Shown piece after piece: positions 8,201 to 42,842 of a stretch of 64,000 bases of DNA. The position numbers and the translations under genes were made by a program. The notes beneath the pieces were generated by a model that saw only the letters and a program-made list of their open reading frames with translations, did not search any database and was not told where the DNA came from. Positions within the stretch are counted from its first letter, which is position 1; each line of letters opens with the position of its first letter. This DNA comes from Chthoniobacterales bacterium (GTDB taxonomy: Bacteria; Verrucomicrobiota; Verrucomicrobiia; Chthoniobacterales; Terrimicrobiaceae): NCBI GenBank assembly GCA_014879575.1, contig JACSRU010000058.1:1-64000 (forward strand), given 5' to 3'.

Positions 8201-9206
8201 CCGACAGATTTTTCTTTTTGATCCAGGGCATCAGCGAGCGGAGGCGGGTGCCCGTCTTCTCGATCTGATGCTGTTCGCCCTTTTTGAGGAGGGCATTGTA
8301 GCGCTTGTAACCGCCTTGGAATTCCTGGACCCAGTCCTTGGCGAATTTTCCGGTCTGGATGTCTTTGAGCGCGGCTTTCATGCGCTTCTTGACGCTGGCG
8401 TCGATGATTTTTGGACCGACGAGCACGTCGCCCCACTTCGCGGTCTCGCTGATCGAGAATCGCATGCCCGCGATGCCGGACTCATTCATCAAGTCCACGA
8501 TCAGTTTCAATTCATGCAGGCACTCGAAGTAGGCCATTTCGGGGGAGTATCCGGCTTCCACGAGTGTCTCAAATCCGGCCTGCACGAGAGCCGAAGCCCC
8601 TCCGCACAGCACGGTCTGCTCGCCGAAGAGATCGGTCTCGGTCTCTTCCTTGAAGCTCGTTTCGATGACCCCCCCACGGGTTCCGCCGACGCCCTTCGCC
8701 CAGGCCAACGCGATCTTTTTTGCGTCCTTTCCGGGGTTTTGGTAAATGGCGATTAGGGCCGGCACACCCTTGCCCTCGGTGAATTGGCGGCGCACGATGT
8801 GGCCGGGTCCCTTCGGGGCCACCATGATGACATTCACATTCTTCGGCGGAATGATCGTCTTGAAATGGATGCTGAACCCGTGACTGAAGAGGAGGGTCTT
8901 GCCGGGCTTCAGGTTCGGCGCGATGTCCTCGAGATACACGGAGGCTTGTTTGGTGTCGGGAATGGCAACGAAAATGACGTCCGCACGACGGACGGCCTCG
9001 GCGGTGTCGAAGACCTCAAAGCCGTATTTTTTCGCGACTGCGCGGCTTTTGGATTTCGGATAGAGGCCGATGATGACCTTTGCGCCGCTTTCCTTCAGGT
9101 TGAGAGCATGGGCATGGCCCTGGGATCCGAAGCCCAGAACGGCAAGGGTTTTTCCCTTGAACACTTTGAGGTCGGCGTCTTTGTCGGTATAGATCTTGGC
9201 TGGCAT
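8181..9206 (-). CDS. ilvC: Ketol-acid reductoisomerase IlvC (class I)
   Basis: This NADPH- and Mg-dependent enzyme makes 2,3-dihydroxy-isovalerate and 2,3-dihydroxy-3-methylvalerate in valine, leucine and isoleucine synthesis. The 341 residues match the short class I form. The Rossmann loop [15 protein letters not shown] is at about 23-37. The metal-binding region includes [12 protein letters not shown] and the second acidic cluster [12 protein letters not shown]. It follows ilvH at 37 bases on the same strand. Confidence 0.97.
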
Positions 9207-13958: not shown

Positions 13959-14000
13959 GCCGACGTGGCGAAATGGCAGACGCAAGGGACTTAAAATCCC
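13959..14000 (+). pseudogene. 5' half of a tRNA-Leu(UAA) gene split by island insertion
   Basis: GCCGACG (acceptor 5' strand, 13959-13965), the D arm and the anticodon arm up to AAAATCCC are present, with anticodon TAA at 13992-13994. The sequence then leaves tRNA structure: no variable arm, T arm or acceptor 3' strand follows. The missing 3' half lies 28.8 kb away at 42783-42842, where CGTCGGC completes the acceptor stem with seven perfect pairs. Confidence 0.93.
13984..14000. repeat. attL: 17-bp direct repeat at the left island edge
   Basis: AAGGGACTTAAAATCCC is repeated exactly at 42783-42799. It covers the anticodon loop and most of its stem. The repeat ends where the left copy reads C and the right copy reads T, and the preceding bases also differ, so 17 bp is the full identity. 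Confidence 0.92.
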
Positions 14001-14143: not shown

Positions 14144-14230
14144 CCGGGTGTGGCGAAATGGCAGACGCATTGGACTTAAAATCCAATGACCTTTTTGGTC
14201 GTGCGGGTTCGAGTCCCGCCACCCGGACCA
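14144..14230 (+). tRNA. tRNA-Leu (anticodon UAA), complete, carried by the island
   Basis: Acceptor CCGGGTG (14144-14150) pairs perfectly with CACCCGG (14220-14226), followed by encoded ACCA. The anticodon arm is TTGGA-CTTAAAA-TCCAA with anticodon TAA; a long variable arm with stem GACC/GGTC and a T arm GCGGG-TTCGAGT-CCCGC complete a class II tRNA. The acceptor stem differs from that of the split chromosomal gene, so this is not a local duplication. It reads the same codon (UUA, and UUG by wobble) that the split gene would have served. Confidence 0.96.
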
Positions 14231-22247: not shown

Positions 22248-25135
22248 AGGGTTTCTCCGAAGAGGTCTTTGTCCTCCGTGATCTGGCCAGCGGCGGCTTC
22301 GATAGCTGTCCAGCCGGTGATGAGTTCGTTGTAGGCACGGGCGTCCTCGGCGCGGTTGGAACGCTCGCACAGCGTGTAAAGGCGGTAGGCGAGTTGGCGG
22401 GTGGCCTCGGCCTTGTGGCGGATCGTGGAGAGGAGGTGGGCGGCGGCAACGTCGCCGCCGTTTTTGTGAGCACGGATGAGGTGATGAAGGCTTTCCCATA
22501 CCGGAAGGCGTGGGTCGGCAGCAGGGTTCCAATCCTCGGGATACTCGGACCATTTGAGCAGGCGCACCTTGCCGCCTCCGCTTTCCAGCACGCCGGAGTG
22601 CTTCACCCCATCCACGCTCGTGCCCTTGGCGCGGGCCAGCACATCGGCCTCGCCGAAAGGACCGGAGTTCCAGCTGTATTGATCAAACCAATGCAGACAG
22701 AATTGCGTATCGTGATCGAAATCGTCCTCGGCGAGGAAGCGGTTGATGAGTTGCAGTGCGGTGCGAACGGTCATCGGCGTGCCGTCCGCCTCCAGCACGG
22801 CGGTGTATTTGGAGAAGACGGCCATGCCGGGGCCGATGATGGCCTGGGACAAATCTACCGGCGCGACCGGCGACCGATCTTCGCCTGCACCCTTGGTCAT
22901 TTCGTCGAGGGCTTCGGGGAGGACGGTATTGAGTTCGCGAATGAACTCACGGCGCGAAATGCTCGGCGCGTCGGTAGGGCGCTTACGGCAGACAAGAATA
23001 ACGCTGGAGGCAAGGGCGTTTGCATCCGCCCCAATCATTCTATTACCCATTTCGGTGCGCATGGGCCACGTGCCCGAGAGCTGGAGATCTGATCTGTGGA
23101 CGGCCTCAAGGAACGTCTCCCAGCCGGTCGAGCTAGTTCCCGATTCCGATTCTGTATCCGATTGTTTAAATGCGTAATAAATCGTGATCGGATACGAGGC
23201 GTGCCCCTGAGTGGCCAAGCTCCGCATTGCCTTGGTCATTCCAACCAGGAAAAACTGTTCAGCCTTCTCTTTGGAGCCATGCCGGTATGGCGTTGCAACT
23301 AACTCTTCAGCCTTTGGCGTTGCGACTGTTGAAAGGACGGATGAGAAGACATCCCGCAACCCCCGCCGCAACCAAATGTAAAAGAAATCCGACAGATCAG
23401 CATAGCCAATATTATCGTAGTATGGCGGGTCTGTCGAAATTACCTTCGCCGTAGAGAAAGATTGAGTTTGCGCATCGGCTTGCGCCACCACCCCTGGATG
23501 GCCGTTCCCAAGACGATCAAGAACTCGCATCATGTTTTGGAGAGAAACGAGGTAGTCGCCCGCCATTCCGCCCAACGCGTTTGCCTCAGAAAAATCCCAA
23601 ACCATCGGGAGTGCCTGTCGGCCAAATGTGGCGATGGATTGGTCCATTGTGGTTTTCCACCGACAGAGAGATGTTTGAGCATCCGACATTTTGCTTACGG
23701 CCAATGCGAGATACACGCTGACAGCTTCGGCGTAGGCTTGGGAGCCAGTGCCGCCGGATTCGAGGGGGCGGGAATCGTCGGGCAGACCGGAGGCTTCCGC
23801 ATCTTGGCGGATGCGCTCCCGCGCCTCGCCCACCAGATCGCTGAAGGTCGTCAGCGCTACCAACTGCCGGGAGGTGAAAAGGTCGCCGTAGGTCGTGAGG
23901 CCATAGTTGGGAGTCTTGAAGTCGCGTGGATTGTTGGGAAGAAGCATCTCTGGCTTCCATGTCGGTTCCGCCCGTGCTGCGGCAGCTTCCATTTCGACAG
24001 TCGACGCAAGATAAACTCGACCGCGAACGCCTTCAGCAACAATTGCCATGAGCTTTTGCTCCATTCGGCCAGCCTTTCCTTGCTCGCGAATGTAATCGTA
24101 GTCGATGGGCGTATCGGACATCAGGCAGCGAAAAGCCTTTCGCTTCCCGGCAGTCGTGCCGCCCAAGGCCTCCGGCGGCGGCGTGCCAATCTTGACGTTG
24201 AAGCGGTAGCTGTCTCCCTCGACAATGGGCTGCACGTAGGCCTCTTTGCCTGCCTTGCTCGACAGAATGAAAGTCGAGGCGAGCGGCACATCCACATGGG
24301 AAAAGGCGGGGTTTGGGCTTTTTACGGTGCGTGCCCAGAGCCACGCGATGACGGTGAGCTTCTGGCCGACGAAGGGTTTGAGGTCGGACCGTTCGCGGGC
24401 CATCTCAGCGGTGATTTCCACCTTGGGATACAAATGTCCGATGCGTTTCTCCGCCTCGGCACGTATCCACGCGCCGTAGTGCCGCACGTCCTCAGCGAGT
24501 CCCGTGGCCCCTTTCCACGATGCCGAGCGTTCGCCCCGCTTGACCGCCGCGGGATTCACCGGCGGTTTTCCGGCGAAGCGCGGCGGAATCTCGATCATGG
24601 CCTTATTGATAAGCACGGGCACGGGATTGAGGTCGGAGGCATACGCCTCCAGCCCGAGCCTCTGTGCTTCCAGCGGGATGGCCCCGCCCCCGGCGAAGGG
24701 ATCGTGCAAGGCGGGAAGCTTGTCGGGGTTGAACAACTCGGCGGCCTGCGGGTGATCCCTATTGAGTTCGCAGACCTCGCGCCACGAGCGGCGTATCTCG
24801 ACGCGAGCGCGTTCCAGCACGGCCTCGTTGGTGGTGTTTTCCCACTGCACGAGGTCTTCGATGATCTTGAATAGTTCCTTCCGCTTCTTCGCGGCTTCGT
24901 GCTTGTTCACGCCATACTTGAACCCCTGCCCCTGCTGGTAACCGGGATCATTGACAAGTTGAGCAAAGATGACCGCCCGCGCCGCCGCCAACGGTCGCCG
25001 TGCCCACCAAAGATGCAGCGTGGATGGATGCCCATGCCGGATGGATTTCTCCCGCGCTGCGGCAGCATTGATCGCATCAAGCGGCAACGCGACCTCGATG
25101 AGCTTGCGGGGGGATTTGATGGGGTGGGCGGACAT
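22244..25135 (-). CDS. DUF1156 adenine-specific DNA methyltransferase
   Basis: This 963-residue enzyme starts with the DUF1156 signature ([20 protein letters not shown], then [20 protein letters not shown]). The AdoMet-binding motif [13 protein letters not shown] is at 145-157 and the catalytic motif [20 protein letters not shown] is near residue 568, as in N6-adenine or N4-cytosine methylases of COG1743. In defence loci such enzymes mark self DNA. It overlaps both flanking genes, by one base upstream and four downstream, so expression is tied to the TOPRIM and DUF499 genes. Confidence 0.92.
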
Positions 25136-25830
25136 CAGGCGGCGGGTGGTGCAGGAGCAGGTGCAGGCGGGACCGCGACAGGGTTCAAAGAGCCAGGGTA
25201 GAATCGTTCGATTTCATGAATTAGAAATTCCGCGAAGCTCCGAATACCTTGAAGGTTATGAGGATTGGTAGCGGGCTGGTGCCCGAGATTCGCCTTCACG
25301 TTGCGCAAAGATTCCCAGGAGACAAAGTCAGCAGGGAGACTGCCCTTACCGTAACCGGGGAAGATGCGCTTGATCTCTGGGAGATAGCCTTCGGAATGAA
25401 GCGGCGTGATAAAATGACGAAGGCCGCCGGGACCACCGAATTTAAGCCACTCTGCCAAGGGGGCACCATCGAAATGCAGGGCGAAGAAATCCTCGAAATT
25501 GTGAAAAGAGAACAGAAAGTCGGGGATGCCGGCTGTCTTTGCGGCATAGTTGTCGGCGCAATGGTAATCGTTGCGATGGTAGAGGTCGAAGTCCGCCCAG
25601 ACCTGAATGGAAGGGATTTTCCGATTGTCAGTGCGGGTTCGGTTGTAGGCACTCTTGATTTTCCCGAAGGAGCCAGTCTTGGCAACGGCATGCATCGGGC
25701 CGATAAAGCGCAGGGGCGCTTCAAAGGTGTCGGGAGGCAATGGCTGAGAGTCCAGAAAACTTTGCAGGCGCTGTAAATAGGCGTGCTCCGATTCTCCTTC
25801 GCAGACAATAATGTGGCGAGTGCAAGGCAT
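25135..25830 (-). CDS. TOPRIM-like nuclease (RloB/DUF4276/AbiLii type)
   Basis: The 231-residue protein starts [19 protein letters not shown], with the TOPRIM catalytic Glu11, and has [11 protein letters not shown] with Asp80 and Asp82, the DxD metal site. [14 protein letters not shown] corresponds to the conserved motif of RloB-type proteins. The C-terminus is a Pro/Ala tail. Such TOPRIM proteins pair with OLD/RloA-like ATPases in abortive infection systems, and the AAA ATPase is directly upstream. It overlaps the methylase start by one base (TGATG). Confidence 0.78.
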
Positions 25831-25832
25831 GG

Positions 25833-27119
25833 CTACAGCGCCGGGTGGGGAACGCCGGAATAGAATCCAGCGAGATATTGCTTGCGGAAGTTGGTGACAT
25901 TTCGAATGTCTTCGCCGTCTTTTTTGAGATCAACCAGGCGGCGAACGAGGGTGCCGTTGGCGAGCGTTTTCTTGACCAATGCGATTTCGGAAAGCCGCAG
26001 AATGGCGTCGTCGAGGATGTCGGTATTATGCGTGGTAAAGATGAGCTGCGCGCCCTTGGGGTTGGTTCGTCGTGTTTTGAATAACATCACGATTTCCCGC
26101 ATGAGTAAGGGATGGAGCGAGCATTCGAGTTCGTCCACCAGCAGAATTCCACCGATCTTGAGCGAATAGAGAACGAGGCCGACGAGGCCGGCCAGCCTTT
26201 GGGTGCCGTCGGACTCGTGCTTTATGAAGTCGAGCAACGTGAGTTTGCCGGCCGCGTTTTTGTGACTGCTGGTAATTAACAGCGCATGTTTTGCTCCTGT
26301 AGCCTGATTGATCCTGGTAATGCCCGGCAACTCAACCTCGTCCTTGGCTATCTCTTTTTGGACAATGTCGATCGCAGCGATGTCAATATCGAGGCGGCGA
26401 ACCACATCCGTAATTTCCCGAAGAGCGGCGTCTTCGTCTCCGTCCAGCGTCGAGGCCAGAATCTCGACAGCGACAGGAAGCAAAACTGTTTCGCTGTTGA
26501 TCAGCAAATGGAGCGATTTCGCAAAAAATCCAAAGACGTTGCTTAGATCGCTATTCAAACCTCGATAGCCGCGAGCGATGCGATTAAGAAAAGGCTTAGT
26601 TTGCCGTCCCTCACCGTCAGAGGATTCCACTCGAAGAATATCAGAAAGTTTTTTCTCAGAGTAAGATTCGGAAATGATCTGCGGGGCAAAAACGCCCTCA
26701 AGCTTCTTAATGGCGTAAAGCGGTTCTCCGTTTTTGCTTAATGCTTCGTCGAGAATTTCCTTCGCATTGTAGGTGAGGCGATACTCGAAACATTCTCCCT
26801 CGATGAGAAACTTCAGTTCGAATGTCGTCTCGGAGAATTTCGGGTTGAGCAAATTTGGTTCGAAGACCTCTGGAAGTTTTGGGCCGGCAGTCACCAAATG
26901 CCTGAATACCGCGAGGGCTTTGAGAATGTTCGTTTTCCCTGAGGCATTCGCACCAAAGAATGCCATGCAAGGCGTAAGGCGATGATTTTCGCCTGCATCA
27001 AGAAACGGGAGAATTTCTTGTTTTTGGTAGCCGTTGGGCGCTTTCCCCTCGCCGTATGAAAAGTCCAATTTCAGCTCCAGAATGGACCTGAAATTCCGAA
27101 CGAAAAAGGAGGATAACAT
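25833..27119 (-). CDS. OLD/RloA-like AAA ATPase (AAA_15/AAA_21 type)
   Basis: The 428-residue product has an SMC-like ABC ATPase layout. The N-terminus is MLSSFFVRNFRSILELKLDF, Walker A is FFGANASGKTN at 54-64, and Walker B is GGILLVDELECSLHPLL near 325, followed by FTTHNTDILDD containing the switch His. No nuclease domain is fused; the TOPRIM partner is the next gene, two bases downstream. This resembles two-gene defence modules such as AbiL or PARIS. The sequence is less GC-rich than the helicase and methylase genes. Confidence 0.82.
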   Translation of the reverse strand: MLSSFFVRNFRSILELKLDFSYGEGKAPNGYQKQEILPFLDAGENHRLTPCMAFFGANASGKTNILKALAVFRHLVTAGPKLPEVFEPNLLNPKFSETTFELKFLIEGECFEYRLTYNAKEILDEALSKNGEPLYAIKKLEGVFAPQIISESYSEKKLSDILRVESSDGEGRQTKPFLNRIARGYRGLNSDLSNVFGFFAKSLHLLINSETVLLPVAVEILASTLDGDEDAALREITDVVRRLDIDIAAIDIVQKEIAKDEVELPGITRINQATGAKHALLITSSHKNAAGKLTLLDFIKHESDGTQRLAGLVGLVLYSLKIGGILLVDELECSLHPLLMREIVMLFKTRRTNPKGAQLIFTTHNTDILDDAILRLSEIALVKKTLANGTLVRRLVDLKKDGEDIRNVTNFRKQYLAGFYSGVPHPAL

Positions 27120-27199
27120 GATTTTGTGATGGATTTCTACTCATTCAAGGCGAAATCCGGGATATGGCAACAAGAATAAACAGATTTTTTGTTTATTTT

Positions 27200-30100
27200 T
27201 CACGCTGAATGGATCGGTTTCGAACGGGCGAGAAGCTGCTTCAGGTCGAAGTTGATGGAGGAAACGCCCCAGCCCGGTTCGGCATCGAACGGGTTTTGGA
27301 TGTAGTGCGGCCCGTCCACAGCGTCATCTTCGCCGACAAGCACGATGGCGAGGCGGAATTTGTCGGCCTGGTTCAAGGCGTAAAGCATCTCGTTTCGCGT
27401 GATGGTGACGGTGCTTGCACCCTTTACCCGGCCTTTTACTTCGATATGACGCGGCTCTGGCAACTTGCCATCCACGGCGGGGGGATAGGACGTGATGTCC
27501 CACCCGCATTTCAGTGCGGAAACGTCCGACACAGTGCATCCAAGGGCTTCCTCCGCTTGGCGGACGGCCTCCATCGCAAGGCGTTCGATTTTGATCCGCG
27601 CTGCTGGATCGGAAGAGAATGCTCCCCCGGTTTCCTGCGGCTCACCCCGCAATTTGCGCAGTAGCCCTGCGGGGATAACCAACGCTCCGCCGAGGGCGAC
27701 TGGGGTGCCATTGACGACGTGGCGCATGGCCTGCAGTTCCTTTTTCCGATTCTCCAGCCGGCCGCCAAGGTCGTTGATGGTGCGCTGAATATTGTCGAGA
27801 TTCAGGCGCACGTCTTTTCCCGCCTCCTGATCCTCCTTCAATTTTATCCATCGGTCGGACCAGTAGGCAATTTCCTTGGTCAGCCGTTCATTCACGGCGG
27901 CAAGGGTCTTGTCCACGTGAGCAACGCGCCGATCCGCAATTTCTTTATAGTGCTCGGGAACGAGCGTCCCCGCGGCGAGAGCGAGTGCTTTTTGTTCCTG
28001 ATCGGCCCGAATCCAGTCTGAACGAAGGAGGTCGGCCAAGATCGGAAGGTCGGAGGAATCTAACGGTTCGTAGTCGAGGTGCGGTGCCCATCCCGCGAAG
28101 GTGGCGGAGCCATCAGGGGCGACTTGAACGAACTGGAGACGCTTGGAAAGCGTGGTGCCGTCACCGGATTTGATCTCATGGGTGATGAGGAACAGGAGCG
28201 AGGCTTCCTCCCCCTCGTCCGTGGGATTTACGAGGATGGTGCCCTGACGGAGAAGGTTGCTGTTTTTCTCCAGTATGATGTCGCTCACCGCGAGCATCAG
28301 CGGATGTCCGGGATGGAGCATCTGCGCAAACGGTGCGTTGGGTCGGTCCAGCGGTCGAACGCAGTCCTTGGTGAAGCAAACGCGTTCGTATCGTTTAAGG
28401 ACGGGCGCGAGTTCGCGGCGATTTCGTCCGCTGATTTGACGGTCACGCTCACGGATGAGTGCGGGAACGTGCGTGATCTCGAACCGGCCCGGCTCTCGGG
28501 GATACATCGCCCCGCCCAAGCTCTCGAAGGCCTTGGCGAAAAATGAACGGACAAAATATGGCTGGAGCCGCCGTGCCTCAGCGATCTCCATTTGCTCCTT
28601 CACAGCAAAAAGCCGCTCGGTGCTCATGCTCTCCTGCGCGAGAGCGTTGCGGTCCAGAAGCTCCTTGATGTGGATCGTATCAAAGGCTGTGTCGATCTTC
28701 TCTAGTCGGCTTGCTCGGCGCTCCGGTTGATCGTTGTATCGGATGGCGTCGAGGAGCAAATCCTTGAGACTCCTTTCCTCAAAAACTTCGCCAAGAATAT
28801 CGAAGACGCGGCCATTGAAAGCGTCGTTGATGGTTTCGAGCTTGGTCAGGAGCCGGTGATAGACCTCGCCCTCGCGAGTCTCCTTGGCCACGAGATTCCA
28901 GAGGTGGCAAACCTCCTGCTGGCCGATACGATGAATGCGCCCGAATCGCTGTTCCAGCCGGTTCGGATTCCATGGCAGGTCGTAATTGACCATGAGGTTG
29001 GCATTCTGGAGGTTGACGCCTTCGCCGGCGGCATCCGTGGCCAGAAGAATACGAACTTCCGGGTCGGAACGGAAAAGTGCCTGCCGTTTTCGTCGTTCGT
29101 CCCGGTGCGTGCCGCCGTGAATCGTCGTAATTGCGTCCGGGTTGCCGAGAACGCCTGCAATTCTCTTCTCCAAGTAATTCAGCGTGTCCCGATGCTCGGT
29201 GAATATGATGAGCTTGCGCTGGCGTCCGTCGGTATCGCGCATTTTTGGGTCATTCTGGAGGATCTGGGAAAGCTCGTCCCATTTCCGATCCTGACCAGAA
29301 TCCACGACTCCTCGTGCCTGATTGACAAGCTTGGCGAGAATGGCAATTTCCGATTCCAGCTCCGCGATGGTCGCCGCTGCGGTTGCCGTGTCGGCGAGCT
29401 TTTCCTCAAGCTCTTCCTGCTCCTCTGCGTTCAGGTCGTCGTCGTCTTCCGGCGCAGCTTCGAGGCTCTGGGAAAACTGCTGACCGCGAGCGAGGAGCTT
29501 TTCCTCGCGCAGACGGCGTTCCAGCCGGTCGTGGCGGCGGCGAAGGGATTGAAAGATGGCTTCCGGGCTGGATGCGAGACGGCGCTGCAAGGCGGTGAGT
29601 GCGAAGCCGACCGAACCTTTGCGCGGGCCTTGCAGGGCGTCGGCTTTACCCATTTCCGTTTTCACGTAGGAGGTGACCGCTTCGTAAAGGGCGGACTCAA
29701 TGCCACTCAGCGTGTAGTTGGCCGTATAGGCACGGCGCTCGGGAAATAGCCGGGTGCCATCGAAGCGCACCATGTCTTCCTTCACCATGCGGCGCATCAG
29801 GTCGGAGGCGTCAACCTTGTGGCTGCCATCGCGGGGCCGGCCATAGAAACGGTCTGAATCCAGCAACGACAGGAAAAGCTGAAAATCCTCGTCCTTCCCG
29901 TTGTGTGGTGTCGCGCTCATCAGCAGAAGATGCCTGGTGCGTGCGCCAAGCTTCTCGGCAAGGCTGAACCGGCCCGTGCGTTTGATCTCGTTGCCGAAAA
30001 AATGAGCGGAGAGTTTGTGGGCTTCGTCGAAAATCACCAAGTCCCACGAAGTGGCCAGCAGCTTTTCCTGAAGCTCTTCATTCCGCGCCATTTGATCGAG

Positions 30101-30715
30101 GCGGACGATGAGATGATCCAAATCCTCGAAAGGATTTCCGGTTGGCGTCGCCGCTTGCAGCGCGGCGGAGAAGACATTGAACTGGAGTCCGAATTTCTCG
30201 AACAATTCATCGCGCCATTGCTCGACGAGGCTGCCGGGAGCAACCACGAGGATGCGGCGGGAGTCGGCACGCATGATGAGTTCGCGGATGAAGAGGCCGG
30301 CCATGATGGTTTTTCCCGCGCCGGGATCGTCGGCGAGAACGAACCGAAGCGGCTGCCGGGGCAACATGGATTCATAGACTGCCGTGATCTGGTGCGGGAG
30401 CGGGTCCACGTTCGACGTGTGGACGGCCATCATTGGATCGAACAGAAATGCAAGGTCGATCCGCTTGGCTTCTACGGCGAGCTTGAACGCCTCCCCGTCG
30501 CCGTCGAAGGACCACGGACGTTCGGCGGTGGCGATGGAAATTTGATCAAGGTCAGCCGGTCCAATCAATCGCTCGCGGATTGTTCCGTCGGGGAGTCTAT
30601 AGATGAGCGTGGCTGACTCGGGAGGGATGGGAACTACGGCAACAATCGTGACAACGAGAGTCGGCTCCACGCCGCTCAAGCTCGCTCCCGGGGTCAGATT
30701 CAGTAGGTTCGCCAT
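27200..30715 (-). CDS. SNF2-like helicase with C-terminal DUF3883 (DrmD-like)
   Basis: This 1171-residue SF2 ATPase has [11 protein letters not shown] (Walker A, 131-136 core), [12 protein letters not shown] near 230, SATPHNGK, and motif [17 protein letters not shown] near 593. Residues about 1050-1140 form a DUF3883 domain with [29 protein letters not shown]. This architecture matches the SNF2 helicase of class 1 DISARM (DrmD). The other DISARM subunits DrmA, DrmB and DrmC are not in the island. An 80-bp AT-rich gap separates it from the AAA gene, where a second promoter could sit. Confidence 0.88.
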
Positions 30716-31625: not shown

Positions 31626-32483
31626 TTACCTCCCGTTTAAGCCTCGAATCCAGTTCCAAGCGCTCCGCACGTCGCAGACATTGCTGCGCTTTTCCACAAT
31701 GCGGCTACCGTCTTGTTTGATTGTGATGAGGTTGGCTTCGAGAACGTCAGGATCGTCAGGATCGCCACCCATATCGGTTGCCATGAGCAGCACAAGAGTG
31801 CCGTCTTCGGCTTCGTGCGCGGCAATCGCCCCGTGAATTTCACAGAGGATTTCGTGAAGCGGGGTTGCCTCCTCGTCTTCGTCATCCCTTGGTTCCTCGC
31901 TGTCAGGGCCGGGGTCGCCGTCCTCGGGTTCATAGTCCGCCGACGAATCGTGGGCGGTGGAGAGAGCTGCGAAATAATCGTCCTCCTCTGGGCTGAACGG
32001 CTCATTGGCGAGGAAACAGGAGTAATCCCCGGCAAGGTAATGACGGTGGCGAGAGCCGTCCAGCTCAACGCGGAGGAAGCCACCGTCGCACAGGTAACGG
32101 ACGGCTGCGTCCACTTCGTAGCTGTGACCCATCGCACGCAATGCGAGTTTGGGAGCCCCTGGCGTGGCGACGAGAAACTCGACCATGCGGCGGATGACTG
32201 CGAAAGGCTTGTCGTCTTCCGGGCCGTGGCCGGGATCACCATCTCCGGGGATGTATTCTTCGGGACCGGGATCACCGTCCTCTGGTTCCCAGTCCGCTTG
32301 AGAATCGCGGGCGGCGGCGAGGGCTGCGAAATGTTCATCCTCGCCGGAGAGGCCGGGGCCGCCGAATCCGAAAAGGAATTGGACACCTTGGCGGCGGGTG
32401 TGCTCGGCGAGGAGGACTCCGCCCGATGCGAGATGGCCGAGCGTGGTGGTTACGTTGCTGGTGCTGGTGTGGTAGGTATTCAT
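31626..32483 (-). CDS. Hypothetical protein with duplicated acidic module and winged-helix-like part
   Basis: The ATG at 32483 (MNTYHTSTSNVTT) gives 285 residues; the open frame upstream is shadow of the ATPase gene end. A module with H/Y-FAAL, DS-x-AD-W/Y-EPEDGDPGP occurs twice, at about 49-80 and 167-200. Between them, a segment ending DGSRHRHYLAGDYS resembles the end of the neighbouring ATPase (GNSHRHYLTEKAE), suggesting a shared winged-helix ancestor. No family is recognised. Six bases separate it from the nucleotidyltransferase gene. Confidence 0.6.
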   Translation of the reverse strand: MNTYHTSTSNVTTTLGHLASGGVLLAEHTRRQGVQFLFGFGGPGLSGEDEHFAALAAARDSQADWEPEDGDPGPEEYIPGDGDPGHGPEDDKPFAVIRRMVEFLVATPGAPKLALRAMGHSYEVDAAVRYLCDGGFLRVELDGSRHRHYLAGDYSCFLANEPFSPEEDDYFAALSTAHDSSADYEPEDGDPGPDSEEPRDDEDEEATPLHEILCEIHGAIAAHEAEDGTLVLLMATDMGGDPDDPDVLEANLITIKQDGSRIVEKRSNVCDVRSAWNWIRGLNGR

Positions 32484-32508
32484 GATGTCGTTGTGGTTTT
32501 GTTGATTG

Positions 32509-33711
32509 TTAAACTTTGTCCCGGCCCGGCTTTTTCGATGCCGCCTCCGGCCTGTAGTCCCCCGGCTCGAACGTGGCGGCGGGCTGCTCCGCTTTTTCGG
32601 TGAGGTAATGGCGGTGTGAATTCCCCTCTTTGATGACGCGGATTTCTCCTGCCTCATGGAGTTTATTGATCGCCCAATCAACGCCGTCTGAGGAACCGAG
32701 CTTGCGAAGCTCGCGTTTGACTTCGCCTGGATATTTCTGCAAATGGTCGACGATCCGGCCCATGAGAACGGTCGGCTTTTCGCCTCCGTCCTCTGCGGAC
32801 TGGCGAGCGTCCTTGCCTTCAGGGCGGAGGTCTGTCCACGTCAGACGCGTTTGCCCGACGCCGACAGGATCAAACCAGAGACGGGCGATGCGCTCGCCCT
32901 CAGCAGCACCAAGGCCGCTATGCCGGTCTTTGACAACTTCGATCTCGATGCCTCCCGCCTTGCCGGGATGGATGCGTCCGTCTTTGTCTTCGATGGTCGC
33001 GGAATACTTGCCGTCTTTGCCCCTCATGGCGCGAATCGCAAAGGCCGAGCCGTCGGTAAGGTCAAGTTTGCTCGTCGCACCTTTGGCGTGGCGGGCGTCC
33101 ACGTCGCGACCAAAGTGGTCGGCGATAATCACGGCGCACCCCGCCGCCGTCGCGGGTTGAAGGAGTCCTTGAATTAAGGAGTAAGCGTCGTCGTTGTCGT
33201 TGATTTTTAGACCGAGCTTGCGGAGGACGGAGGCCACACCGTCAATGATGATGGTCGGCTTGTCCTCCTGAACTGCCGCCTGTTGGACGACAAATTTTAG
33301 GTCCTCTGCGTCGGGCTTTTGCGAATAGACCAGCATCTCCGCAAACGAACGGGGATAGCCAAAAGACTTCGCGCGGCGGAGCATCCGCTGGCAAACATCC
33401 TCGGGATCAACCCACAAAAAGCGGCGTCCGGCTGCTGCTTCCGAACGGGCAATTTCCAGGAGAATGTTGGATTTTCCGATGCCGGTTGGCCCGGCAATCG
33501 GATTGATCGCGCCGGGATAGATGAGCGGGAGGCCAGGCAACACCTCCCCAAGTTCCGGCAGGGTAACGGTTCCGGTATCGCCGTCCCAGATGGCGAGTTG
33601 GTCAACGACGGATCCACCGAAAGCGCCGTTCCAGCCGGGGACGGCTTTTTTCTTCTTTTCTTCGGTCTCGGCTGCGGTGGTGTTTTCGGCGCGGTCGGGC
33701 GCGGTGTCCAT
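32509..33711 (-). CDS. RepA-like RecA-fold ATPase (AAA_25), plasmid replication type
   Basis: The 400-residue product has Walker A GPTGIGKSN at 74-82, Walker B PTIIIDGVAS near 153, and a KGATSKLDLTDGSAFAIR segment as in RepA/RSF1010-type replicative helicases and related mobile-element ATPases. The C-terminal 80 residues look like a winged helix (ELRKLGSSDGVDWAINKLHEAGEI). It probably drives replication or maintenance of the excised island. The iteron-like field lies about 2 kb upstream on the same strand. Confidence 0.8.
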   Translation of the reverse strand: MDTAPDRAENTTAAETEEKKKKAVPGWNGAFGGSVVDQLAIWDGDTGTVTLPELGEVLPGLPLIYPGAINPIAGPTGIGKSNILLEIARSEAAAGRRFLWVDPEDVCQRMLRRAKSFGYPRSFAEMLVYSQKPDAEDLKFVVQQAAVQEDKPTIIIDGVASVLRKLGLKINDNDDAYSLIQGLLQPATAAGCAVIIADHFGRDVDARHAKGATSKLDLTDGSAFAIRAMRGKDGKYSATIEDKDGRIHPGKAGGIEIEVVKDRHSGLGAAEGERIARLWFDPVGVGQTRLTWTDLRPEGKDARQSAEDGGEKPTVLMGRIVDHLQKYPGEVKRELRKLGSSDGVDWAINKLHEAGEIRVIKEGNSHRHYLTEKAEQPAATFEPGDYRPEAASKKPGRDKV

Positions 33712-33963
33712 TTACATACCCTCCTTTTCCGTGTGGAGGGGTTTGCGGCCGGGGCGTCCTTTGCCGGGTGCGGCTTTAAGCGCGTCTTCGGCGTCGTAGT
33801 AGCGGAGGCCGTAACGGCGGATTTTTCCCGCGTCGGCGGCGCGTAGGATTCCTGCGGAATGGCACGTGAGCCAGCGGGCGAGGTCGGCGGCGGTGGCTAC
33901 AACGCGATCATTGCCGAGAAGGCGCACAGCACCGGGAAAGTCGAGTTTGGATTGCGATTTCAT
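33712..33963 (-). CDS. Small hypothetical, probably DNA-binding, protein (83 aa)
   Basis: This 83-residue basic protein has ATAADLARWLTCHSAGILRAADAGKIRRYGLRYYDAEDALKA, which resembles the helix-turn-helix used by excisionases and MerR-type domains (a D-L-A-x-x-L start and a R-x-G-x-x-Y-x-x-x-D-A end). Its stop abuts the start of the RepA-like ATPase gene, so both are co-expressed. A role as replication or excision accessory factor is inferred. Confidence 0.6.
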   Translation of the reverse strand: MKSQSKLDFPGAVRLLGNDRVVATAADLARWLTCHSAGILRAADAGKIRRYGLRYYDAEDALKAAPGKGRPGRKPLHTEKEGM

Positions 33964-34012: not shown

Positions 34013-35128
34013 TCAGGCGGCCTTGATGAGGCCGATTTTTTCGAGTTCCGATTTCCACGGCGTCACGTCGTGGCCTTCCATCGCGGTGCGGATGTCGGCC
34101 ACCTTTGCGGCATCACGTCCGTCCATGCCGATTTCCGAGAGGAAGGCGGCGGTTCCCTCCGAACAGAAGCCGAGGGCTTCAGCGTCTTTGAGGGTGAGGC
34201 GTGCACGGTCATCGAGATAGCCTCCTCCGTTTTTGAGGACGGCACGGGCTTTTTCGATGAGGCCGGAAACGGCTTTGCAGACGGTGCCCGCGTGGTAGTT
34301 CGTTCCGAAGGCTTCCGCGACGTAGAGCGGGAAGCCTTCTCCGAACAGACGGAGCGTGGTCAATCTGATGCATCGGCGGATCACCGGCTCGCCGACCGGC
34401 AGCATCGCACCGGATTGGGTCAACGCCGTGCGCTTCCCTGTGGTGAGGCCAAGGGCCTTGCCGACTTCGGCGAGCCAGTCGCCTTTGCGGGCCGCAAACT
34501 CCATCGTGTCGAGGGTGTCGCCCTCTACAGTGATGAGCTTCGCCTCGTAGCTCGTCGAGCGAGAGGAGGGCCAGCGGGAGCTGCGGCGGGAGTTATCCCA
34601 CCAAGCCGAATCCTTGCGGATGACGAGGAGCATTTTACCCTCGTTGAGGGCGATTTGTGCTTTGCCGTTCTCGGGCCAACCGCGCAGTTCTTCGTTGATT
34701 TCCTCGACGGATTGGCAGAGGCGGGCACCAACGAGCGTGTCACGGTTTTTGCGGCGTTCGTTGTCGCGGTCTATGATGCGTTCGCGGTAGGTAAGGACAG
34801 CCTGCGAGCACCCGCCGGGGTGGTAATACGCCTTCGCGTTCGCCGCGATCTTCGCGGCGCGGGACGGGCGAGAGCGCGGATAGTAGGCTTTCGTCGCCTC
34901 GACGATGGCGTCAATAGCGCCATCAAGTTTGAGGCCACGAGCGCGGTAGTCCCACACGGGGCGGATGTCCGCCGCCTTTGTGGCGCGACGGAGCCGGATG
35001 GCGTCGCGGGGGGCGATACCGAGATCGGCGCACGCTAGGGCGAGCGAGCCAGGGTTGAGGTTGAGTTTAGTTTTCTCCGCCTTGGAGGCGGACGTATCAG
35101 CTGGGTTTTGGTTGTTGGATTGCTGCAT
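34013..35128 (-). CDS. Hypothetical island protein (371 aa), first gene of the minus-strand run
   Basis: From the ATG at 35128 (MQQSNNQNPADTSASKAEK) the product is 371 residues. After a disordered start it is soluble and mixed-charge, with RLRRATKAADIRPVW, a Ser/Arg-rich patch (NSRRSSRWPSSRSTSY) and a helical C-terminus. I recognise no domain. The frame stays open to 35257, but that part translates the tandem hairpins upstream, so I exclude it. It is first in the 21-kb minus-strand run, downstream of two terminator-like hairpins. Confidence 0.65.
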   Translation of the reverse strand: MQQSNNQNPADTSASKAEKTKLNLNPGSLALACADLGIAPRDAIRLRRATKAADIRPVWDYRARGLKLDGAIDAIVEATKAYYPRSRPSRAAKIAANAKAYYHPGGCSQAVLTYRERIIDRDNERRKNRDTLVGARLCQSVEEINEELRGWPENGKAQIALNEGKMLLVIRKDSAWWDNSRRSSRWPSSRSTSYEAKLITVEGDTLDTMEFAARKGDWLAEVGKALGLTTGKRTALTQSGAMLPVGEPVIRRCIRLTTLRLFGEGFPLYVAEAFGTNYHAGTVCKAVSGLIEKARAVLKNGGGYLDDRARLTLKDAEALGFCSEGTAAFLSEIGMDGRDAAKVADIRTAMEGHDVTPWKSELEKIGLIKAA

Positions 35129-35161
35129 TGTTTGCGGTGCAATCCGGCCTGATTTGGGCAC

Positions 35162-35255
35162 AAAAAAGGCCGGTATCGCGTGGTTTTGCGATCCGGCTAT
35201 GATGTGATCAGGGCACAAAAAAAGGCCGGGAATCGCGTGTTGATGCGATCCGGCC
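35162..35255 (-). terminator. Two tandem intrinsic-terminator-like hairpins in the leader of the minus-strand run
   Basis: Read on the minus strand, GGCCGGATCGC...GCGATTCCCGGCC (35255-35224) is followed by seven T, and GCCGGATCGC...GCGATACCGGC (35197-35169) by six T. The two copies are about 57 bp apart and nearly identical, with a third half-arm (GCAATCCGGCC) at 35139-35149. They lie 34-128 bases upstream of the 371-residue gene, so they could insulate it from upstream transcription or act as an attenuator. Confidence 0.65.
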
Positions 35256-35528
35256 AAACATTCCAGGGTTATCCCGGCTGAGTCCGATTGTTGTGTAGCG
35301 GCTCTCGGTGAACGAGTGCTCTTTCGCTGTATCTACACTTGGGAGGGGTATTTTTTTCGGCTTACTCCCGTCTCCGCCCGGACTATCAAAGATCAAATGC
35401 CTTCTTAATTTGAAGGTAGGCTCACACAAATGGAACCGCTAGGCCGAAATGTCAACGAAAATCGAAAAAGAATTTAAGTGGGAATCCCAAAACTCCAACT
35501 CAAACCAACTCCTGGCGCTAGAATCGTC

Positions 35529-35952
35529 GTGCCCCCTATTCCCGCCGGAATCGTGCGACGCGAGCGTCTCGCCGTTTCTCGCTGCCGCTCAAGCAGCATC
35601 TTTTTAGAAAGGCACGTATTTGTTTCTATATATCAACGATTTACAACACAAGAATCAAGTCGTGCCCAGATCGTGCCAAAAATCCAACGGCGCGTCGGAA
35701 CTACCTGTAAACCAAGATTATATTAAAAGATACGCCCGCAAGCCCGAAAATCGGGCAAGACCGAAGACGGGCGAGCGTGCCTAAAACGTGCCCAACGAGT
35801 CAGGCACACTTTTATATCTGTTAATCAGGAATTTCTGATGATCGTGCCTATGTGCCTAAAACGTGCCTTTTTTGTGCCTTTTCTTCCCCTCGCGACATCG
35901 TGCCTACCCGTGCCAGCGCCCCTATAGGGGGCGCGTCAGGCACGGTCGGCAC
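35529..35952. repeat. Iteron-like field of GTGCC/GGCAC repeats, possible replication origin
   Basis: GTGCC or its complement starts at 35529, 35611 (rev), 35662, 35673, 35777, 35788, 35803 (rev), 35844, 35852, 35863, 35874, 35900, 35910, 35939 (rev) and 35948 (rev). Several neighbours are exactly 11 bp apart, one helical turn, and GTGCCTAAAACGTGCC occurs twice. AT-rich patches lie between. This pattern fits an iteron-type origin or a multi-site operator. Confidence 0.65.
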
Positions 35953-36000
35953 GTATTCGCGGGGTAAGGCATAAGGAAGATGATCGAGGATTATCTTCAT

Positions 36001-36519
36001 GGCCGGGGCTGCGCCCCGGCCTAGAGGGGTGACGATCAACAGGAGGGGGGCGGTAGGGCCAAAGGCCCTGCCGCCGCCTTCGGGGCTGCGCCCCTACGGC
36101 ATAAAAGCTGTCACCGGGCAATGCCCGGCAAAGTTCCCGCGCAAAGCGCGGGGGATTTGCCGACAGGGAATAAGATACACGACGTTTTGATTGTCCGGGA
36201 GGGCGAGGACAGCAGGCCGCCCGCTCCGACGATTTCTAGCGCTTTTCCTGCATGTGGGAAAGACGGCGCGGCGTTCCTCTTTGCGGCGGTTTTCTGGTTC
36301 TCCCGTCCCCGGTGACCTTTAACCCGACAGGGCGCGCTTGCGCCCTGCGTTCGCGGCTGGCCCTCCGGGCCATGCCGCCCCGTTCCTCCCGGAGGGTAGT
36401 CATCCACCGTTGAAAAATTCAGGAAAAGAGCGGCGAGCCACGTCCTTTTTCTCAGGTGCGACATTTGGGGTTCCGGTGGGCGATAGCCTCGCCGGGTTTA
36501 TGAGGACGCCCGTAGGGCG
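36001..36519. repeat. Array of perfect short-loop hairpins upstream of the relaxase gene
   Basis: The gene-free stretch 35129-36580 ends in this array. Stems include GGCCGGGGC-TGC-GCCCCGGCC (36001-36021), CGGTAGGGCC-AAA-GGCCCTGCCG (36051-36073), CCGGGC-AAT-GCCCGG (36114-36128), CCCGCGC-AAA-GCGCGGG (36136-36152), CAGGGCGC-GCTT-GCGCCCTG (36328-36347), TGGCCC-TCC-GGGCCA (36358-36372) and CGCCC-GTA-GGGCG (36507-36519). They differ in sequence but share a three- or four-base loop. An origin of transfer for the adjacent relaxase may lie here. Confidence 0.65.
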
Positions 36520-36580: not shown

Positions 36581-37744
36581 ATGATTCGAGAACTTTCCCG
36601 CGAAGCTGCCGAGCACGATAACGCATCCGCAAAACCCAAACGCGGCAAGGAATCTCGCCACCAGCGGGACAAGCGCGAAAAAAAGGAACGCGTGGCGACA
36701 GAATACCGGGCGACGGTCGCGCTCGCCCGCGAAGCCGGCTCCCGAATCGTCGATGGCATCTTCGACGAGAAGGGCGAGGAACATTCCTTTTGCTTCCGGT
36801 TCTATGGTGGCCGGATTTGCCGCGAAAAGGACGCGGCCAAATATACCCGCGCCGCAATCAAGATGTCGGCGGAACGCGCCGTTTACCAGCGCACGAAGGA
36901 GGTCACCGACAAGGACGGCAAAACCATCCTGCGCCCGAACGGGCATGGCCGTTACGCTCATGGCGCGGTTTCGATGATTTCCAGCGTCGCCCCGTGGCAG
37001 GTGGCGACAATCAAACGACTGCCTCAAGACGAGCGGGATTTGCTATTGCTCCAGCTTGCGGAAGTTGAGGCAAAGACGATCAAGGATGTTTCCGGGCGCG
37101 AAGTCTTCGGCGGCTCCGCTCACTACGATACCGCCGTCCCTCACCGGCATATCCACGTCCCGAAAACGGACAAGGACGGCAACATTTACCCGAAAGCTGA
37201 TTTCCTGACGGCGGGCGGGGCAACAGTCGGGTGGGACAGAATCATCCGCCAGTTCGGAGAGGACTCCGGCCTCGTCAGCGAGCAGAATCTTGAACGCTAC
37301 CGTTCCAATCTCGCCAAGAAATACGACAATGGCCGTAAGCTAATTGATGTGGAATGCGCTCGCGCCTGCGACGATTTTTTCGTGAACGTCTGGCTCCAAA
37401 AAAACCCCGAATACCGAAAATCATTCCAGAAAGATTGCCTGGGGTATTCCCGCCGGAAGATAGCAGCACTCAAAGCAGAGAAACACCGGCCTTTGATGTC
37501 TGCGGCCGTAGATGAGTTCGTCACCGTTGGCATTTGGCCGCTCGCCTATCAAGCCATGAATTTTGCCATGTGGCGGCTCATTCCCCGCGATATTCGCCCC
37601 GTCGTGGTCATCGCGATCCGCACAACCCAAGCTGTCCGGCGTCCACTGCGTCTCGTTAAGCAGGCAGTCCGCGTCGTTGATATGCTGGCTGTCCTAGAAC
37701 GGACGAAGGAGATGCCGCCGATTGAGCGCATTTCTATGCGTTAA
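36581..37744 (+). CDS. MOBV-type relaxase (Mob/Pre family)
   Basis: The 387-residue protein carries the HUH signature HYDTAVPHRHIHVPKTDKDG followed by NIYPKADFL, which matches motif III of Mob/Pre relaxases (H-x-D-x-x-x-P-H-x-H). The N-terminus is highly basic (KPKRGKESRHQRDKREKKER). A Lys/Arg-rich C-terminal region has LIPRDIRPVVVIAIRTTQAVRRPLRL. Such enzymes nick oriT and lead single-stranded transfer using helper conjugation machinery. It is transcribed rightward from the hairpin array, where an oriT is expected. Confidence 0.78.
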   Translation: MIRELSREAAEHDNASAKPKRGKESRHQRDKREKKERVATEYRATVALAREAGSRIVDGIFDEKGEEHSFCFRFYGGRICREKDAAKYTRAAIKMSAERAVYQRTKEVTDKDGKTILRPNGHGRYAHGAVSMISSVAPWQVATIKRLPQDERDLLLLQLAEVEAKTIKDVSGREVFGGSAHYDTAVPHRHIHVPKTDKDGNIYPKADFLTAGGATVGWDRIIRQFGEDSGLVSEQNLERYRSNLAKKYDNGRKLIDVECARACDDFFVNVWLQKNPEYRKSFQKDCLGYSRRKIAALKAEKHRPLMSAAVDEFVTVGIWPLAYQAMNFAMWRLIPRDIRPVVVIAIRTTQAVRRPLRLVKQAVRVVDMLAVLERTKEMPPIERISMR

Positions 37745-38266: not shown

Positions 38267-38439
38267 TGAATTTCGGTGCTCGCTGCATGGCATCGCCGGG
38301 ACTGGGCGTTTCTGGGAATTTTCGCCCACTCCCGAAATTTTGGAACGCGATGAGCGTTCCGGGTGGGGGGCGGGATTCTTCGATTGTCCGCTTCCACATC
38401 ACCCAGCCGGAACGGTCGGGTTTCGGTTCGGTGGCAATG

Positions 38440-38470
38440 GAGCCGGGCGGGTTCGGTTCCCGCCCGGCTC
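38440..38470. repeat. 12-bp stem hairpin, copy 2 of a pair shared with 33975-34005
   Basis: GAGCCGGGCGGG and CCCGCCCGGCTC form a perfect 12-bp stem with 7-nt loop TTCGGTT, 18 bases upstream of the ATG at 38489. Arms and loop closely match the hairpin at 33975-34005. The gene-free gap 38267-38488 holds nothing else I can identify. Confidence 0.7.
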
Positions 38471-38488
38471 TCACTGATTTCTAACTTT

Positions 38489-39091
38489 ATGCTGACGCTC
38501 GAATCTAAACCTTCGCTCCGTGTTCTGCGGGCGCTTCGTGGGCAGCAAGTCCGTTGGGGTTCGCTCGGAGAGCGGGATCGCGAATACTGCGCGGCGTGGG
38601 ACTCCCTGCCGGAAGATGCCCGCTTGCAGCTTGCCGCCCAGGGCGTGACGGGGCCGTTGCTGCCGGAGTGTTCGCGCGAGGAAACGCCCGCCGCTCCCTT
38701 GCCTTCCTCCAACGACGCTCCGCTTGCCGTCGAGTATGACGCGGCAGAATCGGTCTTGCGAGTGCTGCAAATCCTTACCAGCTCTCACCATCCCTCCTTG
38801 CGGTTGGCTGCTGATTGTCTCCTACTCATCATCAACCGTTCCGACGAAAAGAACGAGGCGGCGGTTGCAAAGAAGCACGGCATCACCCGCGCGGCGGTCA
38901 GCAAACGAATCCGTGAGATGCGGAAGGGCCGATTCCTCGACGGTTTCGAGATTCACTATTTCGGCGGTCGCCGGGCGGACAGCGAACGCGCCCGTGTCCG
39001 TGCTCTTCGTGTCCACAAACAACGAAAACAACAATGCAAACATCAACCCCAAGCGAAACAAGCGGCCTTGTCCCTGCTGTCGGAATTGTGA
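38489..39091 (+). CDS. Helix-turn-helix protein (200 aa)
   Basis: The ATG at 38489 (MLTLESKPSLRVLRAL) gives 200 residues; sequence further upstream in frame translates a hairpin and is excluded. The centre has EAAVAKKHGITRAAVSKRIREMRKG, a good helix-turn-helix with the A-V-A-x-x-x-G-I-T-x-x-A-V-S pattern, and the C-terminus is basic and Gln-rich. It probably binds DNA on the island, as regulator or initiator. It overlaps the next gene by 58 bases in another frame. Confidence 0.65.
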   Translation: MLTLESKPSLRVLRALRGQQVRWGSLGERDREYCAAWDSLPEDARLQLAAQGVTGPLLPECSREETPAAPLPSSNDAPLAVEYDAAESVLRVLQILTSSHHPSLRLAADCLLLIINRSDEKNEAAVAKKHGITRAAVSKRIREMRKGRFLDGFEIHYFGGRRADSERARVRALRVHKQRKQQCKHQPQAKQAALSLLSEL

Positions 39092-39651
39092 CCGTGAACG
39101 TGGAGGAAATCCGCGGAAGCTACGACCGCACCGTCACGGCACTTAAAACTGTGGCTCTAGCCTCGCACGAGTTTTTCGTTTCATGCGTTGAAACGGGTCA
39201 GCTCCTGGCCGCCAAACGCGAAGAATACCGCGACAAATCGGGCTGGCTCGAATGGCTCCGCCGGGAAGTCCCGGAAATCAGCCAACCCACGGCATCCCGC
39301 CTCATGGCGATAGCCGCGAGCTATTTCAGCGGAAACACCTCGCCCGCGCTTCCAGATCGGCTCTCGTCCATCCGCGCCCTACACGATGCCTTAAAGGCGA
39401 CGGCGGAGGAGGATAAAGACGCTTCGCCGAAGACAGTCCGGACGGCGGCAGTAAAAACGACGAAGACAGATGGGATATTTTTTCGGCTGTTCCGAATGAT
39501 CTCCAGGCCCGCCTTGGCGACTCCCGAACAGCAGGCATTTATCACGAATACAGCGGAGGCGGTTCGGCTTTGTGAAGAACGCGGATGGAAACTGCCAACA
39601 ATCGACGTGATGACCAAAGTCATGCCAATGGACAGCCGATCACTTGAGTAA
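39034..39651 (+). CDS. DUF3102-like protein (205 aa)
   Basis: The 205-residue product contains HEFFVSCVETGQLLAAKREE and SGWLEWLRREVPEISQPTASR, the pattern of DUF3102-like proteins on mobile elements, which often sit near replication or partition genes. The C-terminal half is less structured. The start at 39034 overlaps the previous gene by 58 bases; a later internal start is possible but would lose conserved sequence only after residue 30. Confidence 0.55.
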   Translation: MQTSTPSETSGLVPAVGIVTVNVEEIRGSYDRTVTALKTVALASHEFFVSCVETGQLLAAKREEYRDKSGWLEWLRREVPEISQPTASRLMAIAASYFSGNTSPALPDRLSSIRALHDALKATAEEDKDASPKTVRTAAVKTTKTDGIFFRLFRMISRPALATPEQQAFITNTAEAVRLCEERGWKLPTIDVMTKVMPMDSRSLE

Positions 39652-41271: not shown

Positions 41272-42699
41272 TTAACCCTCAAAGTCGGGTTCGGGGGTGG
41301 GTTCGTCTGGTAAATCTGGAAGGTTTTCTTGCGTCTCAGGAGTTTGGGCGAGTGCCTCAACAACGGACGGGAAGAGCCGCCAGAACTGCGAGCAATCTCC
41401 CGGCCTCACCGCATTGAGGTAATTGGCTTTGATCACGGCCTCGCTATTTCCGACTTCGGTGGCCGTGAGTGCGGCGTCCTTGTAGAGCTGGTAATGGTAA
41501 GAGCTGAAACAGTGGCGCAAGGAGTTCTGCGGCCATTTTTTGAAGCCGGCGGCGGTCGCGATTTCGCGTAGAGCAATTTGCCAAGCGGCCTCGCGGCCTT
41601 CCTTACCCTTCCGGTTCGGGAGGTAATCGAAAACCAAATCGCCGGGCTCTTTATCGCCGACGATAAATTCGAGCCAAGCCGTGAGAACGGGTTCGACGGT
41701 TGAAGCTCGGGTCCGTCCGGTTTTTACGTGAGCCGCTTTGAGGAAAACCGATCCATCCAAAATGGCGCCCCATCGGACGGACTCCATCTCGTTATTCCGC
41801 ATGCCCGAGAAGAGCTTCAAGCAAAGCCCACCCAAGGCCTCGGGCCGCTGGTTCTGCGCTGCCCAAAGGAGCCTCGCAACTTCCAACGGCGAAAGGATGT
41901 ATTTCTCTTCCTTGTTCCGGTCGGTCGCCAGTTTCTTTTTTCGGCGGACAAGTCCGAGCGGGTTGGCGTCTCGGGGGAGCCAGAATTGGTCGATGGCAAA
42001 ATTGAAGAGGATTCGTGAATAGCGTTTCCGCTTCTCACGTAGAGCCAAGCTCGCCGGAGGGCCAACCTTCGGTTCCACCTTGGGAGCGACCTGGGGTACC
42101 CGAGGGGGTTGGCCTTTCTTTGGCCGGTCTGCCTTCACGTTCGGGTCTTTGGGAGGCTTTGGGGCCTTCTCCCGGTGCATGCCTGCGGGTTTCTTGAGCA
42201 TCTCGGAAACGTCCTCGGGCGTGATTTCCGAAACCTTCTTGTCGAGGAAGCCTCCCCAAAAATGGAGGAGCTTGGCTTTGCAATCTCGGATATGCCGGTC
42301 GGTGAGTCCTTCCAATTTCTGCTCGTCGTGGAGGGCGGTAATCGCCTCCCGCATAGTTTTCGTGGTCTTCACGCGTTCGAGGTGTTGCACCCATGCTTGC
42401 GCGGCTGCGAGTAGGCTTGGCCGTCCATCCAAAACGGCAAGGGCGGCACTTACTTCCCGGAGGGTTTCCTCGGAAAGATTCCAGACTTCCGAAACAGCCT
42501 TGGCCTTCTTCTCCTTCCCGAGGTTCTCTTGCTCCTCGAAAACCCAAGCCTCGGCCTCGGCGTAGGTCGGGAAGGCTTTCTTCTTCGACCCCTCGCCAAG
42601 AAAAACGTGCGAGAGTCGGGCACGAAAAAAGGGTGTTCCCTTCGCGCTCGTCTCCTCGCTTATTCCCGCCCCAGGTGGGAGGTTTTTCTTACGTGCCAT
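41272..42699 (-). CDS. Tyrosine recombinase (island integrase)
   Basis: The 475-residue protein has an N-terminal arm-binding-like region, a core-binding domain (about 100-260, with a Pro/Lys-rich insert near 175-215), and the catalytic domain. SGMRNNEMESVRW supplies Arg I, HVKTGR the Lys, NSLRHCF the Arg II box, EVGNSEAVIKANYLNAV the Tyr near 426. Both conserved His positions are Asn (NSLRH for HxLRH, GN for GH), a variant I recall in verrucomicrobial integrases. It ends 84 bases before the attR repeat and should cut within the tRNA anticodon arm. Confidence 0.92.
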   Translation of the reverse strand: MARKKNLPPGAGISEETSAKGTPFFRARLSHVFLGEGSKKKAFPTYAEAEAWVFEEQENLGKEKKAKAVSEVWNLSEETLREVSAALAVLDGRPSLLAAAQAWVQHLERVKTTKTMREAITALHDEQKLEGLTDRHIRDCKAKLLHFWGGFLDKKVSEITPEDVSEMLKKPAGMHREKAPKPPKDPNVKADRPKKGQPPRVPQVAPKVEPKVGPPASLALREKRKRYSRILFNFAIDQFWLPRDANPLGLVRRKKKLATDRNKEEKYILSPLEVARLLWAAQNQRPEALGGLCLKLFSGMRNNEMESVRWGAILDGSVFLKAAHVKTGRTRASTVEPVLTAWLEFIVGDKEPGDLVFDYLPNRKGKEGREAAWQIALREIATAAGFKKWPQNSLRHCFSSYHYQLYKDAALTATEVGNSEAVIKANYLNAVRPGDCSQFWRLFPSVVEALAQTPETQENLPDLPDEPTPEPDFEG

Positions 42700-42782: not shown

Positions 42783-42799
42783 AAGGGACTTAAAATCCC
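42783..42799. repeat. attR: 17-bp direct repeat at the right island edge
   Basis: AAGGGACTTAAAATCCC is identical to 13984-14000. The distance between the copies is 28,799 bp. The next base continues the tRNA variable arm, unlike the left copy. Confidence 0.92.
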
Positions 42800-42842
42800 T
42801 TATCCCGAAAGGGGTGTGCGGGTTCGAGTCCCGCCGTCGGCA
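42783..42842 (+). pseudogene. 3' half of the split tRNA-Leu(UAA) gene
   Basis: After the shared repeat come the variable arm (CCC-GAAA-GGG stem), T arm GCGGG-TTCGAGT-CCCGC and acceptor strand CGTCGGC with discriminator A at 42842; no CCA is encoded. Joining 13959-14000 to 42800-42842 restores an 85-nt class II tRNA with a fully paired acceptor stem. Confidence 0.93.

Follow-up and report, generated by a model that had tools for sequence, protein, structure and literature searches.

A phased GTGCC repeat field as a candidate replication origin of a tRNA-Leu island in a Chthoniobacterales bacterium

An island of 28.8 kb is inserted in the tRNA-Leu(UAA) gene of a Chthoniobacterales bacterium and carries, between divergent transcription units (a relaxase-like gene on one side and a rep operon on the other), a compact field of GTGCC repeats. 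The question that this locus raises is what such a field is for. We studied it within the window, that is, the whole 64,000-nucleotide stretch of DNA analyzed here. The reading that we consider probable, from sequence comparison, is that the field is the vegetative origin (oriV) of the excised integrative mobilizable island, providing iterons and an unwinding region for an initiator/helicase of its own. Table 1 collects the features.

Table 1. Features of the island discussed in the text, ordered by position in the window
Feature	Position	Strand	Basis
Left attachment repeat in split tRNA-Leu(UAA)	13984–14000	+	
ORF with second copy of the ATPase C-terminal winged-helix-like segment	31626–32681	-	
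AAA_25 RecA/RadA-like ATPase, proposed replicative helicase, with winged-helix-like tail	32509–33711	-	
Xis-like DNA-binding protein of 83 aa, with a relative in the G512 island	33712–33963	-	Homology
Orphan protein of 371 aa and candidate initiator, encoded first in the rep operon	34013–35128	-	Coding-like codon use
Rep operon leader with two hairpin-forming 39-nt repeats, then T-runs and GTGCC	35159–35254	-	
GTGCC/GGCAC array (n = 15), proposed oriV iterons	35529–35952	.	Site count and shuffles
Least stable AT-rich stretch within the array, candidate unwinding element	35598–35647	.	Stability scan
Second low-stability stretch within the array	35812–35861	.	Stability scan
GC-rich palindrome cluster, candidate oriT	36000–36470	.	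Sequence, inverted repeats
Relaxase-like protein, 387 aa, conserved HxD...PHxH	36581–37744	+	
HTH protein (61% identity to its G512 counterpart)	38363–39091	+	
DUF3102-like protein (42% identity to its G512 counterpart)	39034–39651	+	
Island tyrosine integrase, right end	41272–42699	-	
Right end: attachment repeat and displaced tRNA 3′ half	42783–42842	+	

The repeat field and the genes around it

The 424 bp of the field contain 15 sites, 11 of them GTGCC and 4 GGCAC. An earlier note on this DNA had given the same count against about one expected by chance, and the window average (182 sites in 64 kb, or about 1.2 per 424 bp) bears this out; the next-densest 424-bp stretch elsewhere in the window contains 7 sites. 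Start-to-start gaps along the field are 82, 51, 11, 104, 11, 15, 41, 8, 11, 11, 26, 10, 29 and 9 bp. The four gaps of exactly 11 bp that had been reported are therefore present, whereas the gaps of 8–11 bp, reported as six, are seven upon recount. Four GTGCC pairs at 11 bp exceed the maximum of two obtained in 2000 dinucleotide shuffles of positions 35400–36000, a statistic that was picked after the array had already been seen; 14 such pairs exist genome-wide, and these four are among them. The core of the repeat is nearer CGTGCC, of which the intergenic region contains 12 copies, against at most 8 in shuffles. The 16-mer GTGCCTAAAACGTGCC occurs twice (35777 and 35852), again as claimed, and has no third site anywhere in the 3.6-Mb genome when up to two mismatches are allowed.

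AT-rich patches had also been described among the repeats, and they are real: both low-stability stretches of Table 1 rank within the bottom three for stability of all 50-bp stretches across 6.5 kb. No exact DnaA box is present, only sites with one mismatch; such a box is not known to be required in helicase-initiated origins such as that of SaPI. Several features by which an iteron origin is recognized are found together at this place: short non-random repeats in a compact non-coding region, helical phasing, an AT-rich unwinding region in or adjoining the array, and the gene of an AAA_25 ATPase in the adjacent operon.

That operon runs leftward from the array on the minus strand, in the order 371-aa orphan protein, 83-aa Xis-like protein, ATPase and tail-duplicate ORF. 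The earlier note had called the ATPase RepA-like. It is an ATPase, but of the AAA_25/RadA-like type (Pfam E 4e-11), and its C-terminal segment is 42% identical over 60 aa to the copy in the last ORF. No Pfam or NCBIfam family matches the Xis-like protein, and no primase was recognized among the products of the operon. Searches of the family, of a phylum sample and of the plasmid and viral collections gave no relative of the 371-aa protein; the latter two collections likewise gave none for the relaxase-like protein and the ATPase, two scans of genome contigs were also negative, and no close relative of the replication cassette of the window was found. Structure models of two orphan proteins, built with no alignments, reached a pLDDT of 37–38 (38 for the 371-aa protein, a useless model) and were not used as evidence. 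Upstream of the operon, two further GGCAC sites outside the field (35157 and 35212) adjoin the two terminator-like hairpins of the leader, for which attenuation control is possible. A similar hairpin precedes the rep operon of the sister locus G512.

Rightward from the array come the palindrome cluster, located upstream of the relaxase-like gene, then that gene itself and the HTH and DUF3102-like genes. The designation as a relaxase, also made in the earlier note, has the conserved HxD...PHxH as its sole support, as no relaxase family is matched in Pfam or NCBIfam.

The island and its relatives

The tRNA-Leu(UAA) gene is split at the anticodon region into a 5′ half (13959–14000) and a 3′ half (42783–42842), both of which contain AAGGGACTTAAAATCCC, and the joined halves match the whole tRNA gene of G004 at 98%. 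A tyrosine integrase, a flanking direct repeat in a tRNA gene and the intact site in G004 are what is expected of a tRNA-integrative element. Ordinary tRNA islands regenerate their target (PMC4383910). Here the host gene is broken and not restored, and the island has a complete tRNA-Leu(UAA) of its own, located separately at 14144–14230, immediately within its left end; the other close tRNA match in the genome is, in a partial census, a UAG tRNA. The same split plus replacement, with a related integrase, is seen in G009. Such an arrangement could make the host depend on the island. The cargo includes an Hma defence system (HmaA, HmaB and HmaC; 19431–30715), with an AbiL-like pair between HmaB and HmaA.

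Searches with the relaxase-like protein led to two sister loci, G512 and G532, and the search with the ATPase to a third element, G240. The G512 island occupies the same tRNA-Leu(UAA) site and has homologous relaxase-like, HTH (61%), DUF3102, Xis and integrase proteins, the shared block being inverted relative to the integrase. Its helicase is of the P4 family (TIGR01613, 2e-14) with a Primase_Cterm/D5-type match, unlike the AAA_25 protein of the window. Between its relaxase and Xis genes there is no GTGCC cluster; at the corresponding place, and as in the window between divergent genes, three TGGGA pairs at 9 bp are found, an arrangement absent from 2000 shuffles. Among 344 sliding 450-bp windows (53 kb) of G512, the only one with at least three pairs is the TGGGA array; the plain TGGGA count is marginal (p 0.03), its strength lying in the paired spacing.

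G532 carries four copies of AGGTGCGA in both orientations (p 0.003), with no helical phasing. They flank a 50-bp stretch whose stability is the lowest in 7 kb (z 4.6) and lie in the gap between a 638-aa replication-type gene, immediately beyond its 3′ end, and a convergent HNH-type gene. As no named helicase family was matched by the 638-aa protein in Pfam or NCBIfam (the only match was a PHROG of unknown function), it is termed helicase-like from a Walker-type motif and its position only. In G240, 14 copies of GGAACT fall within 281 bp just past the 3′ end of the gene of its ATPase, the AAA_25 relative of that of the window. In the window, G512 and G532, a DNA stretch that ranks among the least stable of its surroundings lies within the array or directly beside it, and the three relaxase-helicase regions share no sequence longer than expected by chance. 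The relative order of array, helicase and Xis genes varies between elements. The comparison set is small, being four elements with four motifs chosen via relaxase or helicase matches.

Same-motif pairs were also surveyed in 100 intergenic stretches across all loci, with a threshold of at least three pairs. Three stretches reached it: the window array, the G240 array and the 207-bp start of the window. The latter (1–207) contains three TCCGG pairs at 12 bp. The G512 array was missed by this ORF-based cut because spurious ORFs cover it. Around the weak relaxase-like relatives (L071–L075 and L085–L089), no array with at least three same-motif pairs was found.

Two look-alikes were considered and rejected as equivalent arrays because, in the stretch read, neither adjoins a recognized helicase. 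The viral contig L041, obtained in a 17-mer DNA search, has a 22-bp stretch identical to window sequence, and GTGCC sites at 11-bp spacing (8700–9030) that flank a tRNA-like attachment region and also fall within the 3′ end of the integrase gene; these appear to be integrase arm sites. L042, from a 20-base pattern search, has a phage intergenic array (4786–4890) of the 11-bp units ACGTGCCCAAA and ACGCACCYAAA. The CCCGGCAC repeat of L040 (11419–11483) was not counted, being a simple tandem repeat.

Origin or another kind of binding array

The earlier note had named a lack of conservation of motif or spacing in related islands as refuting its reading. This is literally what is seen, as the sister islands have no GTGCC array. 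We do not regard it as fatal, since the sisters have different helicases and, at the corresponding place, short-motif arrays of their own. That the field would let the excised island replicate is still the best-supported reading of the sequence, with the argument for an origin resting on conservation of position and kind instead of on motif or spacing. Taking into account that G512 keeps the HTH protein while its motif differs and its helicase is unrelated, the array motif appears to track the replication gene.

Phased short sites also fit cooperative repressors, HTH proteins are encoded on the island, and the genes on either side of the array diverge both in the window and in G512; a regulator bound to the GTGCC sites could control the relaxase and rep promoters with no origin function at all. 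We consider this unlikely. Convergent genes point their 3′ ends at the G532 array, which speaks against an operator, and the G240 array lies past the 3′ end of the helicase gene; the HTH proteins of the window and G512 are 61% identical, but the motifs are completely different, and a regulator leaves the match with low-stability DNA unexplained. Operator and origin are in any case not mutually exclusive, because origin iterons often regulate rep as well. Less likely again is a relaxosome or transfer site, in which the repeats would be accessory-protein sites of an oriT beside the relaxase-like gene: the gene is only 0.6 kb away, with the palindrome cluster in between, but the relaxase-like proteins of the window, G512 and G532 are homologous, their motifs are unrelated and no stretch longer than chance is common to the three regions, and G240 was reached via the helicase, not the relaxase.

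Partition sites typically carry short repeats phased at 10–11 bp, so that a centromere-like site for a ParR- or ParB-like protein also comes into consideration. It seems very improbable, as none of the island proteins that were scanned was recognized as ParA/ParM-like and conservation of the DUF3102 protein is not accompanied by conservation of the motif. The reading to which we give least credence, almost none, is that the GTGCC sites are arm-type sites for a tyrosine integrase, as they apparently are in L041. Arm sites should sit within a few hundred bases of the core, whereas the attachment sites of the island lie about 7 and 21 kb from the array and lack a GTGCC cluster.

A putative replication cassette

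If the field is an origin, replication would begin with integrase-mediated excision of the island. An island-encoded initiator would then bind the short CGTGCC iterons; this role could fall to the AAA_25 ATPase through its winged-helix-like tail, to the copy of that tail in the ORF at 31626–32681 or to the orphan 371-aa protein. Binding on one helical face may melt an AT-rich stretch, at about 35600–35650 or at 35812–35860, upon which the helicase would be loaded and the host polymerase would copy the circle. The relaxase-like protein could then mobilize the copies. Helicase and iterons would form a cassette exchangeable between islands.

Among known systems, SaPI Rep recognizes short iterons, and SCCmec Cch2 depends on a 5-nt iteron, AAGTG, that lies downstream of the Cch2 gene (PMC7581432). 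In both, as proposed here, short iterons lie by the gene of an initiator helicase, whose C-terminal domain is the DNA binder (PMC7581432), and the G512 helicase matches the same Primase_Cterm/D5-type family. The helicase of the window, in contrast, is RecA/RadA-like (AAA_25) and not of the D5 or DUF927 type; the G512 sister alone has a D5/P4-type protein. An additional orphan gene lies between the helicase gene of the window and the array. In SGI1, the iteron oriV adjoins rep and xis, and relatives have alternative replication modules (PMC7433901). SGI1 is likewise an integrated mobilizable island with an iteron origin near rep/xis, AT-rich stretches and modules replaced in relatives, but its four iterons are 17 bp long, and it has a putative DnaA box and a RepA_C initiator (PMC7433901), as opposed to the 5–6-bp sites, the lack of an exact DnaA box and the AAA_25 ATPase of the window. 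The Vibrio cholerae PLE satellite, another anti-phage island of the chromosome, also combines an initiator of its own with an iteron origin; it differs in its RepA_N initiator, its semi-palindromic iterons and the helper phage needed for its replication (PMC7145576).

A RecA-like helicase, separate candidate DNA-binding proteins and iterons are features common to the window and the IncQ (RSF1010) replicon, which uses the RepA helicase, the RepC initiator and 20-bp iterons. The units of the window are 5–6 bp and not 20 bp, there is no plasmid match, and Pfam and NCBIfam recognized no RepC or RepB′ relatives among the neighbours.

A broader proposal, which we advance tentatively and hold to be somewhat less probable than its converse, is that islands of this group consist of a backbone (relaxase-like, HTH, DUF3102, Xis and integrase proteins) that receives swapped cassettes of a helicase plus its cognate iterons. 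The cassette of the window, with the orphan 371-aa protein and the AAA_25 ATPase with its winged-helix-like tail recognizing CGTGCC, would then represent an uncharacterized type of initiator.

The sister arrays suggest a rule for finding origins, namely, to look for an element-specific field of short motifs beside a helicase. If the origin reading is true, a defence island of a little-studied lineage would be a conditional plasmid, beyond a passenger of the chromosome, and the copy number of its defence genes, their spread by mobilization and incompatibility between islands at the same tRNA could depend on this origin.
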